The notes under the pieces are model-generated. The model had not been told where the DNA came from. It worked only from the letters and a program-made list of their open reading frames with translations, and made no database searches. 36,170 nucleotides of DNA from a virus. The stretch lies in the IMG/VR virus record IMGVR_UViG_3300034010_000433, positions 1 to 36,170 of that record. The stretch is one strand, 5' to 3'. Numbering within the stretch: the first letter of the stretch is position 1; the number at the start of each line of letters is the position of its first letter. A program made the position numbers and the translations under genes. Shown here one piece after another: positions 9,558 through 24,145 of the stretch.

Positions 9558-9600
9558 GCAAATGTACTACATTTATTTTAAACCACCAAATTCATTAAGA
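9558..9600 (-). promoter_or_regulatory. Promoter with TCTTAATG upstream box, drives RHH-tnpB
   Basis: Minus strand: TCTTAATG box (9593-9600), TTG (9587-9589), 20 bp, TACATTTGC (9558-9566). The box begins exactly 34 bp upstream of the TA of the -7 element, as in three other promoters of this window (13498, 14405, 24103). The -35 to -15 portion is almost identical to the promoter at 13498. Confidence 0.8.
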
Positions 9601-10517: not shown

Positions 10518-10721
10518 TAAAATTAAACAACACATCCACCAAGATTGGGATTTTTTAAATATATAGTGTCGGGACATACCGTCTTTTATATTATATATTA
10601 AATCATACTCGACAAACGTAACACTTTCTTGGTAGTGTTGATAATAGCATCCAGACTGCGTTTTCACTGAATTAGATTAGCGCCTCCTACTACTTGTTTG
10701 CCTTTCTATGTGTTGTTTTGT
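10518..10721 (-). other. Spacer between the two tRNA-like genes
   Basis: About 200 bp without a credible protein gene; a GTG-started frame across it runs into the tRNA and is rejected. It holds one hairpin (AACACT/AGTGTT, 10620-10639, 8-nt loop). No T-loop motif of a further tRNA is seen. It is probably part of the tRNA precursor transcript. Confidence 0.35.
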
Positions 10722-10907: not shown

Positions 10908-10918
10908 ATAATTCCAAT

Positions 10919-10950
10919 GCAAAGGTATAGCTTTTATTTTACTTGTGCAA
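10919..10950 (-). promoter_or_regulatory. Bacteroidota-type promoter of the tRNA cluster
   Basis: Minus strand: TTG (10948-10950), 20 bp, TACCTTTGC (10919-10927). Transcription would start about 10 bp before the structured RNA and run through both tRNA-like genes into the small genes at 10417-9645. A TTAA sits at the place occupied by the TCTTAATG box in other promoters, so the box is at most partial here. Confidence 0.75.
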
Positions 10951-11317: not shown

Positions 11318-11533
11318 TTACATTGTTTTAATAAAATATTTAACTTCTTCCCAATCTTCCGCAAACATTTCTCTATCTGTATCAATAATAACTGTTCCCA
11401 TATCCTGATACATCAGTCTAATCTGAGTGTCTACTAAAGCTTTTCCATGTTTTTTAGCCATTTCTTTGTTATTATCGCCCGTAACTTCAAAATAGCTGTT
11501 ATATATTTTTTCTGCAATTTCTTTGTTTGTCAT
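11318..11533 (-). CDS. Hypothetical protein (71 aa)
   Basis: A 71-residue soluble, mostly helical protein (KEIAEKIYNSYFEVTG ... EDWEEVKYFIKTM). The first gene of a small leftward unit under the promoter at 11605-11636, followed by the zinc-ribbon and Lys-rich small proteins. No family recognised. Confidence 0.65.
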   Translation of the reverse strand: MTNKEIAEKIYNSYFEVTGDNNKEMAKKHGKALVDTQIRLMYQDMGTVIIDTDREMFAEDWEEVKYFIKTM

Positions 11534-11604: not shown

Positions 11605-11636
11605 GCAAAGTTACGAATTATAATTTTAATACACAA
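11605..11636 (-). promoter_or_regulatory. Bacteroidota-type promoter for three small genes
   Basis: Minus strand: TTG (11634-11636), 20 bp, TAACTTTGC (11605-11613). It lies directly after the GIY-YIG/HTH gene (stop 11649) and about 70 bp upstream of the ATG at 11533. No TCTTAATG box at the -34 offset. Confidence 0.75.
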
Positions 11637-12253: not shown

Positions 12254-13177
12254 TTAACAGTTCTCTCCATTTAACCAAAAATCAATCATATCAAATTGTA
12301 AATAGGTTTTCTTTTTATATTCTACAATAGGTTTACTCTTACTTTGAGGTATTGTAACGGGTTTTTCTTCGTTTACAGAAGAAACTAATGAAAAAGAAGA
12401 AACTGTTTCAATCATAAGCCATCCGTTTCTATAAACGTTTCTATTTGACAGAATCCCCGCTTCTTTTCTATTTAAATACTCTCCATAAGAAATTTGTTCG
12501 ATTTTCTCGAACTCTCTTTTTGTCTTAATGATGTTTTTGTTTTTCAGCTTCTTTTTATAATATGCGCCGTTAGACTTCACATCCTTAATAATCTTATTCC
12601 CATTTTGCTTTAGAACGCTAAACCCTTGCAAAGATAAAACAGTTTTCTCAAGTACTGAACCATCGAAGCCTTCTCTTTCAAGACGTTTTGCCGCCTTGTA
12701 TTCTTTTAAAGACCTCGGATTGGTGATTTGTGCTAATTGTTCTCTTTGAGTTAATTTTTTTGCAATTTGTTTTTTCTGTTCTTTGTGTTTTGAGAATACA
12801 CGAACAGCCAACGAACTGTCGGCTGTATTATTTAAATTTTTACCCACTAAAATAGGGAGTAATTTTGTATTATATGTTTTTTTAAGTTTGTCGTTTCCTA
12901 TAAGGACAAAATCCCCATTAAAATCTATGTAACACAATCCCATTTTTATAAGCATTGGTACATATTTTTCAATAGCGTGTAATGATAACGAGGTTTGCTT
13001 TCTTAATAAATTATACCCCGAAACTTTTTTATTATTCTTTGACGTATGAGCGTAGTACTTCACCTCCCCATTACGAGAAGCCTTCAAAATAGAATATACA
13101 GCAATAAGTTTGTCGCCACCAAGTGCGAACAACTTTGCGTATAATTTTGATGGTATTCTTACTACTTTATCACTCAT
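12254..13177 (-). CDS. Winged-helix DNA-binding protein (regulator or replication initiator)
   Basis: A 307-residue basic protein. The N-terminal ~100 residues (RIPSKLYAKLFALGGDKLIA ... SLSLHAIEKYVPMLIKMGLC) form a probable winged helix: helix, HTH with SLHAIEKYVPML as recognition helix, then a beta wing GLCYIDFNGDFVLIG. The rest is Lys-rich and helical with no enzymatic motif. Such proteins in phages act as transcription regulators or replication initiators. Its 170-bp leader carries three long hairpins and a terminator 10 bp before the start codon, so expression is probably attenuated. The role is inferred. Confidence 0.6.
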   Translation of the reverse strand: MSDKVVRIPSKLYAKLFALGGDKLIAVYSILKASRNGEVKYYAHTSKNNKKVSGYNLLRKQTSLSLHAIEKYVPMLIKMGLCYIDFNGDFVLIGNDKLKKTYNTKLLPILVGKNLNNTADSSLAVRVFSKHKEQKKQIAKKLTQREQLAQITNPRSLKEYKAAKRLEREGFDGSVLEKTVLSLQGFSVLKQNGNKIIKDVKSNGAYYKKKLKNKNIIKTKREFEKIEQISYGEYLNRKEAGILSNRNVYRNGWLMIETVSSFSLVSSVNEEKPVTIPQSKSKPIVEYKKKTYLQFDMIDFWLNGENC

Positions 13178-13187
13178 GTTGCTATAT

Positions 13188-13247
13188 AAAAAAGCCCCTT
13201 ATTAAGGTATAAACTCTTACAGCGATGTTTATAACAATAATAAGGGG
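13188..13247 (-). terminator. Terminator-like stem just before the winged-helix gene
   Basis: Minus strand: a perfect 10-bp outer stem (CCCCTTATTA/TAATAAGGGG, 13195-13204 with 13238-13247), a 7-bp inner stem (TATAAAC/GTTTATA, 13208-13214 with 13227-13233) and a following T6 run (13188-13193). This is a textbook intrinsic terminator, yet it lies 10 bp upstream of the ATG at 13177. With no promoter between, it would act as an attenuator of the winged-helix gene. Confidence 0.75.
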
Positions 13248-13267
13248 GTATCTTATGTATTATTAGT

Positions 13268-13342
13268 TTTGTACTTAGCTGTAATCGTACAAACTTCTAT
13301 GTATGTTTAAAACTTATACTAGCTAGAAATCATATAAGTTTT
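13268..13342. repeat. Two tandem hairpins with matching loops
   Basis: Hairpin A: 10-bp perfect stem AAAACTTATA/TATAAGTTTT (13309-13318 with 13333-13342), 14-nt loop. Hairpin B: 7-bp perfect stem TTTGTAC/GTACAAA (13268-13274 with 13287-13293), 12-nt loop. On the plus strand the loops read CTAGCTAGAAATCA and TTAGCTGTAATC, sharing TAGCT..AATC. The terminator-like stem at 13188-13247 carries GCTGTAA in its loop on the other strand. They could be protein-binding sites, part of an origin, or RNA structures of the leader. Confidence 0.5.
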
Positions 13343-13350
13343 ACTATGTC

Positions 13351-13493
13351 TTTTAAAAAACCCCAGAACTGCCTAACTGGGAAAATTAAAAATGCACAGT
13401 TTTTAAAAATTTACTTTCGACCGCGGACACCGCAATCCCATATCAGACATTCAGTTACGTTTCCACTAAGGAAAGAGGCTTTTCTGAATCTAA
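13351..13493 (-). ncRNA. Stand-alone small RNA gene (about 140 nt)
   Basis: A TCTTAATG-box promoter (13498-13540) is followed about 120 bp later by an intrinsic terminator (13353-13382), with no protein frame in between. The predicted RNA contains TTCAG/CTGAA (long-range), a TTCC-TTAGT-GGAA hairpin and an 8-bp hairpin GATTGCGG-TGT-CCGCGGTC with two G-U pairs, so it is well structured. A CTGATA...GAAA arrangement around that hairpin is reminiscent of a hammerhead core but lacks the required CTGATGA. No known family. It may be a phage regulatory RNA. Confidence 0.55.
13353..13382 (-). terminator. Intrinsic terminator of the small RNA
   Basis: Minus strand: CCCAG (13377-13381) and CTGGG (13362-13366) form a 5-bp GC-rich stem with a 10-nt loop, followed by a G and six T residues (13355-13360). 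Confidence 0.75.
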
Positions 13494-13497
13494 CGGT

Positions 13498-13540
13498 GCA
13501 AAATTACAACTTTATTTTTAAACCACCAAATACATTAAGA
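13498..13540 (-). promoter_or_regulatory. Promoter with TCTTAATG upstream box, drives the small RNA
   Basis: Minus strand: TCTTAATG (13533-13540), TTG (13527-13529), 20 bp, TAATTTTGC (13498-13506). The upstream part is nearly identical over 20+ bp to the promoter at 9558-9600. It overlaps the gap after the tail-type gene (stop 13545). Confidence 0.8.
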
Positions 13541-13544
13541 AATT

Positions 13545-14393
13545 TTAAACAAAAAATATGTTTATTATTAAATCATTTAATCCTACTGCCGTAGTATCAC
13601 TCAATGCTGCCCCAGTGACAGTTGTTAAACCAATTCCTATACTAAACCCTATTCCACCTTCTAAATTATAACTAACTGTACTGTTTGGTGGCACACCTAT
13701 AGTTACTACTACCCCCGAACCCGCTGTTGGAGATGTAACTTGATTATGAAATTTTACATAGCGCCAAACAGCGTTTGTATTACTTATACTCCAACCTACT
13801 AATTTTCCTGCTGACCCTTTAATTACAGTGGCATTTGTAGAAGCAGTACTTATAATTTGACTTCGAGAGGCTGACCCAGTTGCACTTGCTCTATATTGTA
13901 CTCCTACATCTCCTATAAGATTAGTACCAGATGCAATAGAACCAGTACCTATATTTGCAGTTACTGTACCTGAAACAGGTATAGCAGACTGGTTAGAAGC
14001 TATAACAACTGGAGAAGACGATGCCATTGTTGTTTGTCCAACAGATGGTATTTTTGTATTTAAGGATTGTAGTGTTGTTTCTAAAACTGTATTAGAAATA
14101 GGTAATGGGGTCGCTCTTATTTCAGAATTAGTGAGTGGCTGTGTTATTCCTATTTTATTAGTGTAAAATTCATCAAACTCCGACTCCGTATATAAAGTTC
14201 CATTACTTTTAACTAATTTACCTATTTCTAATATAAATTCGTTTTCTAATCCCTCTACATTATAAACTTTGTACAAAGGTCTGCCATTACTGTTCTTATT
14301 AATAGTAAAAATACCTTTTATTCCGTAGAACTTCTTATTAGTCTGTAAATCTTCAATAATAATTACATTATTAAACTCATAAATTTTTATCAT
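13545..14393 (-). CDS. Tail/virion-type protein (SPVVIASNQSAIPV motif)
   Basis: The ATG at 14393 is chosen because the longer frame would begin at a TTG inside the promoter. The 282-residue product has an N-terminal globular part (to about 100), then Gly/Ser/Thr-rich, low-charge sequence. It contains SSSPVVIASNQSAIPVSGTV (about 125-144), a motif recurring in phage tail and baseplate-associated proteins. The C-terminal part (about 185-282) is beta-like with GVPPNSTVSYNLEGGIGFS, resembling small virion decoration or tail domains. It is odd in lying on the leftward arm, away from the structural genes, next to the divergent promoters. Exact location in the particle unknown. Confidence 0.65.
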   Translation of the reverse strand: MIKIYEFNNVIIIEDLQTNKKFYGIKGIFTINKNSNGRPLYKVYNVEGLENEFILEIGKLVKSNGTLYTESEFDEFYTNKIGITQPLTNSEIRATPLPISNTVLETTLQSLNTKIPSVGQTTMASSSPVVIASNQSAIPVSGTVTANIGTGSIASGTNLIGDVGVQYRASATGSASRSQIISTASTNATVIKGSAGKLVGWSISNTNAVWRYVKFHNQVTSPTAGSGVVVTIGVPPNSTVSYNLEGGIGFSIGIGLTTVTGAALSDTTAVGLNDLIINIFFV

Positions 14394-24102: not shown

Positions 24103-24145
24103 TCTTAATGATTTTTGTAAATTAAAATAACCATAGTAATTTTGC
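24103..24145 (+). promoter_or_regulatory. Promoter with TCTTAATG upstream box, drives scaffold-capsid genes
   Basis: Plus strand: TCTTAATG (24103-24110), TTG (24115-24117), 19 bp, TAATTTTGC (24137-24145). The box starts exactly 34 bp before the TA of the -7 element, as in the three leftward copies. It gives the head genes a dedicated promoter. Confidence 0.8.

Follow-up and report, generated by a model that had tools for sequence, protein, structure and literature searches.

A predicted promoter-proximal leader with a kissing-loop terminator in a phage related to Cellulophaga phages, and its counterparts in related phages

The window analysed here is a stretch of 36,170 nt (positions 1 to 36,170 of the IMG/VR virus record IMGVR_UViG_3300034010_000433) and stems from a phage related to the Cellulophaga phages phi4:1 and phi17:2 (34% identity of the terminase). 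The locus of interest lies between two genes on the minus strand. The upstream gene, P0002 (13545–14408), encodes by inference a tail-fibre-like protein; its C-terminal domain is common to many phage contigs. The downstream gene, P0001 (12254–13177), encodes a protein of 307 aa that belongs to no known family. Homologues of P0001 are present in the related phages L003 and L004 (52% identity) and L005 and L006 (30%); none was found in phage records or, in a scan of the genome collection, in bacterial genomes, no toxin family matched, and the AlphaFold model (mean pLDDT 49) was too low in confidence for a fold search. Between the two genes, the minus strand carries a promoter, a first non-coding segment of about 140 nt (RNA1) that ends in the terminator T1, and a second segment of about 165 nt (RNA2) that ends in the terminator T2.

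The promoter (13540–13498) has the form TCTTAATG-N27-TAATTTTGC and combines the TCTTAATG element with a Bacteroidota −7 box (TAATTTTG, 13506–13499). The pattern TCTTAATG-N(24–34)-TAnnTTTGC occurs four times in the window, compared to an expected number of 0.02, and every copy is exactly 43 nt long (N27 spacing); the other copies are at 9600–9558 and 14447–14405 on the minus strand, the latter belonging to P0002, and at 24103–24145 on the plus strand. Thus, the strong promoter that an earlier note on this DNA had described is borne out. That note had also proposed expression together with the head genes, and this holds at the level of a shared promoter class, since one copy precedes gene 24142 in the head-gene cluster. 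The −7 consensus of the primary sigma factor of Bacteroidota is TAHHTTTG (TTTG/TAnnTTTG), and in F. johnsoniae transcription starts 4–5 nt downstream of it (PMC6847099). The −7 box at 13506–13499 fits this consensus, and the start is therefore predicted near 13494. In the other three copies of the class an ATG follows 9–19 nt past the −7 element, whereas the promoter at 13540–13498, as the sole copy without a nearby ATG, is followed by none for 48 nt and then merely by a frame of 15 codons. Because of this difference, a non-coding transcript beginning near 13494 is predicted, and this prediction is well supported at the motif level. A promoter scan of the minus strand revealed no second recognisable promoter between T1 and the ATG at 13177.

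Several further observations were made behind promoters in the window and in the other phages. The promoter copy at 9600–9558 precedes a gene for a TnpB-type protein (OrfB_IS605 plus a Cas12f1-like TNB domain; 9405–8302, minus). At 11620–11534 (minus), another promoter and, immediately behind it, a hairpin resembling a terminator (GUGCUCCAC...GUGGCACGGUUUUUU) precede the gene at 11533–11318 and possibly form a second attenuator. After a promoter at 10927, a short conserved non-coding element (GGUUUCA...GAUAGUAUC...GUAAAACCGUG) is present at 10918–10830 (minus) as well as at L093:5014–4925 (minus). The crAss001-type phages (L132:623–1000, crAss001; L133) have a promoter that matches that of phi4:1 in sequence (94% over 34 nt), followed by about 300 nt without an annotated gene before a tRNA cluster. 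In phi4:1 (L098:7066–7135) and in the leader regions of L128 and L113, frames of 22–45 codons with glycine-rich ends (ISGGTGV, LLGGIGV, GGGSTI) follow such promoters and possibly represent a family of tiny phage proteins.

RNA1 (13494–13354) is the interval between the promoter and T1. T1 (13382–13355) has a UCCCAG/CUGGGG stem, a 10 nt loop, and a U6 tract; its hairpin (13382–13361, −7.5 kcal/mol) was found also by a terminator scan and lies about 110 nt past the predicted start. The longest frame on the transcribed strand has 15 codons (MSDMGLRCPRSKVNF, 13450–13403) and is probably no gene. Although the 15-codon frame (MSDMGLRCPRSK) resembles the beginning of P0001 (MSDKVVRIPSK), we attribute this to chance, because the codons differ and the ATG is absent from the corresponding slot of L003; a frame of 82 aa on the opposite strand (13346–13594) is unsupported. 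RNA1 thus has its own promoter and terminator and lacks a frame, as would be expected of a stand-alone small RNA gene, which is how the earlier note had read it. The terminator and the absence of a protein frame stand as described there. The hairpin of 8 bp with a UGU loop is indeed present (13437–13419), but it carries little weight as a signal of structure, as an 8-bp hairpin with a 3 nt loop arises in 11% of shuffled sequences with the same base composition. T1 could release a transcript of about 140 nt; the fold of RNA1 (140–150 nt) is within chance (z −1.36; 21 of 200 shuffles were as good).

The sequence of RNA1 did not lead to relatives either. No conserved sequence or structure of RNA1 was found in the phage DNA or in the fetched loci of related phages, the region 13200–13700 gave only weak promoter-region or AT-rich matches against phage DNA, and a blastn comparison of the leader with the fetched loci of relatives revealed no homologous sequence. 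In Rfam 15, no family reached the gathering threshold over the locus, where the best sub-threshold matches had E values of 0.9–5.8, and the scan of the whole window yielded only two tRNA matches, both elsewhere. The statement of the earlier note that no family is recognised thus survived the search it had proposed, at gathering as well as at relaxed thresholds, with nothing beyond tRNAs above threshold. The stand-alone gene itself fared less well: no recognisable promoter separates RNA1 from the structured leader of about 170 nt and the co-directional gene 13177–12254 behind it, the fold is no better than those of shuffles, and the search of Rfam, phages, and fetched loci yielded no relative. 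What is conserved in related phages is an architecture just outside 13351–13540. Taken together, the observation is confirmed in part, and the stand-alone reading, although partly supported, is probably too narrow; RNA1 probably constitutes the 5' half of a long untranslated leader before a phage gene.

Elsewhere in the window, two tRNA-like genes on the minus strand, 10823–10721 (103 nt) and 10517–10440, were found with the Rfam covariance model and missed by ARAGORN, and are unusual or degenerate tRNAs. A conserved non-coding sequence, UUUGUCGAGUAUG...AUCCCAAUCU, lies between tRNA-like genes at 10720–10525 (minus) and at L093:5800–5600 (minus); folded alone, the element of the window is within the range of shuffles (z −0.8).

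Beyond T1, the minus strand is non-coding for about 170 nt, up to the ATG at 13177. The second part of the leader, RNA2 (13350–13187), has a strong fold (z −3.87), which was equalled by none of 200 shuffles. Hairpin A (13342–13309; AAAACUUAUA/UAUAAGUUUU) has pair probabilities of 0.95–1.0. It is followed by the kissing hairpin (13293–13268), which has the stem UUUGUAC/GUACAAA and the loop GAUUACAGCUAA, and by T2 (13247–13188), a two-tier hairpin with the outer stem CCCCUUAUUA/UAAUAAGGGG, the inner stem UAUAAAC/GUUUAUA, and a U6 tract (13193–13188). The T2 hairpin proper (13247–13195) has a folding energy of −20.3 kcal/mol (z −4.0), and T2 ends about 10 nt upstream of the ATG. The stems of RNA2 have pair probabilities near 1; lower values are confined to the outer pairs of the kissing hairpin (0.34–0.78) and, in the inner stem of T2, to the outermost pair (0.57). 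The apical loop of T2, AUCGCUGUAAGA, contains the bases GCUGUAA (13223–13217), which are perfectly complementary over 7 bp to UUACAGC (13284–13278) in the loop of the upstream hairpin, both loops being 12 nt long. A match of at least 7 bp between them occurs in 0.25% of shuffles (p 0.0025), a value that is conditional on the two hairpin loops and refers to one sequence. When the hairpin is ignored and the whole 102 nt upstream are searched, the same match is not significant (p 0.32), and thus the kiss in the window is tied to the context of the hairpin. A pairing of RNA1 with RNA2 reached p 0.09.

As in an attenuator, intrinsic terminators (T1 and T2) stand between the promoter and the co-directional gene at 13177. 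However, no mutually exclusive antiterminator fold is predicted; the T2 stem has probabilities of about 1.0 in RNA2, and T2 persists when the full leader is folded. Therefore, any switch would have to use kinetics, a bound factor, or the kiss itself. The leader contains no tandem repeat and P0001 resembles no toxin family, which speaks against a type III toxin-antitoxin (ToxIN-like) locus, where a pseudoknot RNA in tandem repeats would precede a gene for a ToxN-type nuclease. By the 7-bp match between its loops, the window leader would qualify as a kissing leader, for which the covariation comes from relatives.

The closest relative among the genomes compared is L084/L093 (terminase 59% identity, synteny); in phi4:1, the region that corresponds to the window locus is occupied by a tRNA array. 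Upstream of their P0001 homologues, L003 and L004 have the same plan as the window, namely a promoter, a hairpin with an 11 nt loop, a terminator hairpin with a complementary loop, a U-tract, and the ATG. In these two phages, the hairpin loop is complementary to the terminator loop over 10 bp, and in their alignment 29 of 29 proposed pairs are kept, four of them changed on both sides, three of which are in the kissing helix. In L108 and L110, the leaders of which are otherwise largely identical, five of nine pairs of the corresponding helix are compensated and one is broken. Altogether, the kissing pairing of these two pairs of phages shows eight compensated changes and one break, and a slide of the partners by 1–3 columns abolishes the pairing in both. 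Substitutions are concentrated in the kissing arms of the two close pairs (12 of 18 versus 14 of 109 columns, p 4e-6, and 6 of 20 versus 9 of 155 columns, p 0.003). By this covariation, the leaders of these relatives belong to the kissing or pseudoknot type.

Leaders in which the loop of the terminator complements an element further upstream were found in about ten related phages, among them the cultured Cellulophaga phage phi4:1 (7 bp). The complementarity comprises 8 bp in L093 and L136, 9 bp in L100 and L119, 10 bp in L113, and 12 bp in L123; the L006 leader showed none that was significant. Fisher's combined p over 12 leaders, a set that includes the failures L006, L128, and the window, is 4e-10, for hairpins and leader limits of the relatives that were picked by eye. 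Blind scans for U-tract hairpins did not show a clear enrichment of the leaders at fixed thresholds: at p<=0.05, 2 of 19 leader hairpins and 10 of 209 other hairpins scored, in a scan of low power that missed several leaders. Complementarity alone is unspecific, since a pattern scan for pseudoknotted terminators gave 9 matches in 121 kb and 13 in 279 kb of shuffled DNA. Because the hairpins were chosen by eye and the underpowered blind scan did not separate the leaders, the covariation in the close pairs outweighs the combined p. Two candidates from the collection scan, L137 and L138, were rejected as chance matches within coding genes.

RNA1 and T1 have no counterpart in most relatives. L003 also has a separate promoter and a non-coding RNA of about 100 nt before its kissing leader. 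This arrangement, together with the frame-free interval between promoter and T1, would fit a stand-alone gene for a trans-acting small RNA (13494–13354) that ends at T1, with RNA2 as the separate leader of P0001. We regard this as unlikely, as the fold of RNA1 and the search for similar sequences speak against it, and RNA2 would be left without a recognisable promoter of its own in the window.

The genes behind the leaders are of unlike kinds. The leader is followed by P0001 in the window, L003, and L004, by primase-type genes in L119 (BT4734-like_N) and L093 (PriCT_1), and in L136 by a small acetyltransferase-like gene and then Prim-Pol and DUF3987. In phi4:1, L100, L108, and L110, it is followed by another structured or non-coding stretch before the gene at the helicase position; in L108, L110, and phi4:1, the leader unit thus precedes another non-coding RNA and not a start codon. 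A pairing that is kept while the letters are not, located after a promoter and before unlike transcripts, looks like a cis-acting transcription gate, as judged from sequence comparison. Because the loops diverge while the pairing persists, a cis element is the better fit; an RNA acting in trans would be expected to conserve its seed.

The stretches before the helicase-position gene are of two kinds. The first, a structured and conserved RNA of about 300 nt, is present in L105, L106, L107, L111, L114, L115, L117, L118, and L100; it lies, for example, at L105:7100–7420 (minus) and reads CGUGNGGCUA...UUCACGUUGCGGU...GGAAGAGG...GACCGCC. In this RNA, 15 base pairs are maintained although both of their bases have changed. 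The two loci scanned, L100 and L105, gave no Rfam match. The other large non-coding stretch, AUCGUAACGGA...GUUUAGUAACUG...UUUGAAG, is common to phi4:1 (L098:11760–12300) and two uncultured phages (L108 and L110); Rfam scans of phi4:1 and L108 gave no match to it.

We propose that the region 13494–13178 (minus, about 317 nt) is a promoter-proximal, non-coding attenuator leader of P0001 that depends on the kiss, and assign a probability of about 50% to this reading. It builds on the promoter class, both terminator hairpins, the fold of RNA2, the complementarity of the loops, and the covariation in relatives; from these we infer transcription, its ending at T1 and T2, and an effect of the kiss on termination and the direction of that effect. 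RNA polymerase would initiate at the TCTTAATG/TAnnTTTG promoter, at about 13494. Some transcripts would end at T1 and yield an RNA of about 140 nt, and the rest would run on into RNA2, where the loop of the hairpin would kiss the apical loop of T2 within the same transcript. The kissing complex would set the frequency of stops at T2 and, thereby, the amount of P0001, and the short RNAs released at T1 and T2 may be by-products or secondary regulators.

The U-tracts might also terminate little, in which case the leader could act on the stability or translation of the mRNA or, close to the promoter, as a polymerase-modifying RNA similar to put of phage HK022. The structure stops about 10 nt before the ATG, and the plan is common to leaders of unlike genes, both of which would be in accord with such a role. 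However, the hairpins do end in U-tracts of 5–7, and the unit of L108, L110, and phi4:1, with a non-coding RNA and no start codon behind it, does not fit, so that we hold this possibility to be improbable. Another possibility is feedback by self-sensing, whereby the terminated leader RNA with both loops would kiss nascent leaders in trans, and termination would rise with phage copy number, comparable to the way in which replication genes of some plasmids are limited by antisense RNAs. In leaders that are conserved otherwise, the kissing arms change fastest, and a divergence of the kissing sequences would avoid cross-talk between phages and explain the fast turnover; several leaders also stand before primase-type genes. 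However, an intramolecular kiss should outcompete pairing in trans, and the promoter scan revealed no TAnnTTTG-type antisense promoter on the plus strand over the leader, as would be present in the plasmid type of antisense control; feedback of this kind appears distinctly improbable. A functionless, incidental structure in an AT-rich intergenic gap would agree with the fold of RNA1 alone, which is no better than shuffles, but it is very improbable in view of the fold of RNA2 and the covariation in relatives, which for RNA2 argue strongly against it.

The more interesting object at this locus is thus the kissing-loop terminator leader at 13350–13187, together with its counterparts in related phages, rather than RNA1. 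Tentatively, these leaders might represent a new class of RNA switches in Bacteroidota phages, in which the loops of a 5' hairpin and of the leader's own intrinsic terminator kiss each other, the kissing sequences diverge fast and stay complementary, and a replication operon or a large non-coding RNA is gated, possibly with sensing of the copy number in trans; we consider this generalisation possible but doubtful. A search of the literature, restricted to open-access papers, found no description of such kissing-terminator leaders, and RNA-based regulation in Bacteroidota phages is, to our knowledge, little described. Because the pairing is conserved and the letters are not, RNA searches based on sequence would miss such leaders. 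The leader plan heads early or replication clusters in unlike phages and is present in the culturable phage phi4:1, so that timing control by RNA in this phage group could be tested directly at the bench. If the feedback possibility were true, the leader might sense phage copy number through trans kissing of the terminated RNA.

Among known systems, the attenuator in the 5'-UTR that yields the small RNA Rli51 of Listeria monocytogenes has a promoter, an RNA of about 120 nt, a premature terminator, and a gene behind it, and a single promoter serves both the short RNA and the read-through mRNA (PMC11394854). The window leader likewise has a promoter, a short RNA that would be terminated, and a gene behind the terminator. 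In contrast to Rli51, it has two serial terminators, the loop of the second of which would kiss an upstream hairpin, it is borne by a phage, it lacks a predicted antiterminator fold, and its sequence is unrelated. In the plasmids pT181 and pIP501, a leader RNA capable of kissing and a terminator are located before the replication gene, and an antisense RNA transcribed from the other strand serves as the partner. The phage leaders resemble these attenuators in having kissing loops and a terminator ahead of a gene, which in several cases is of the primase type; they differ in that both partners belong to one transcript and that the promoter scan revealed no antisense promoter. No antiterminator fold, antisense promoter, or Rfam match was found that would place the leader among the 5'-UTR attenuators of the Rli51 kind or the pT181/pIP501 type. 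The put RNA of phage HK022 suppresses downstream terminators and does not itself end in one. As with put, a structured RNA lies right behind a phage promoter, in cis and before unlike genes; unlike put, the window leader ends in a terminator, and the searches revealed no relation in sequence or fold, the Rfam scans having given only tRNAs. GOLLD and ROOL are structured phage non-coding RNAs of hundreds of nt that often lie beside tRNA arrays. The leader is short in comparison and has no Rfam match, but like GOLLD and ROOL it is a structured non-coding RNA of phages, and phi4:1 and its relatives also have a tRNA array.
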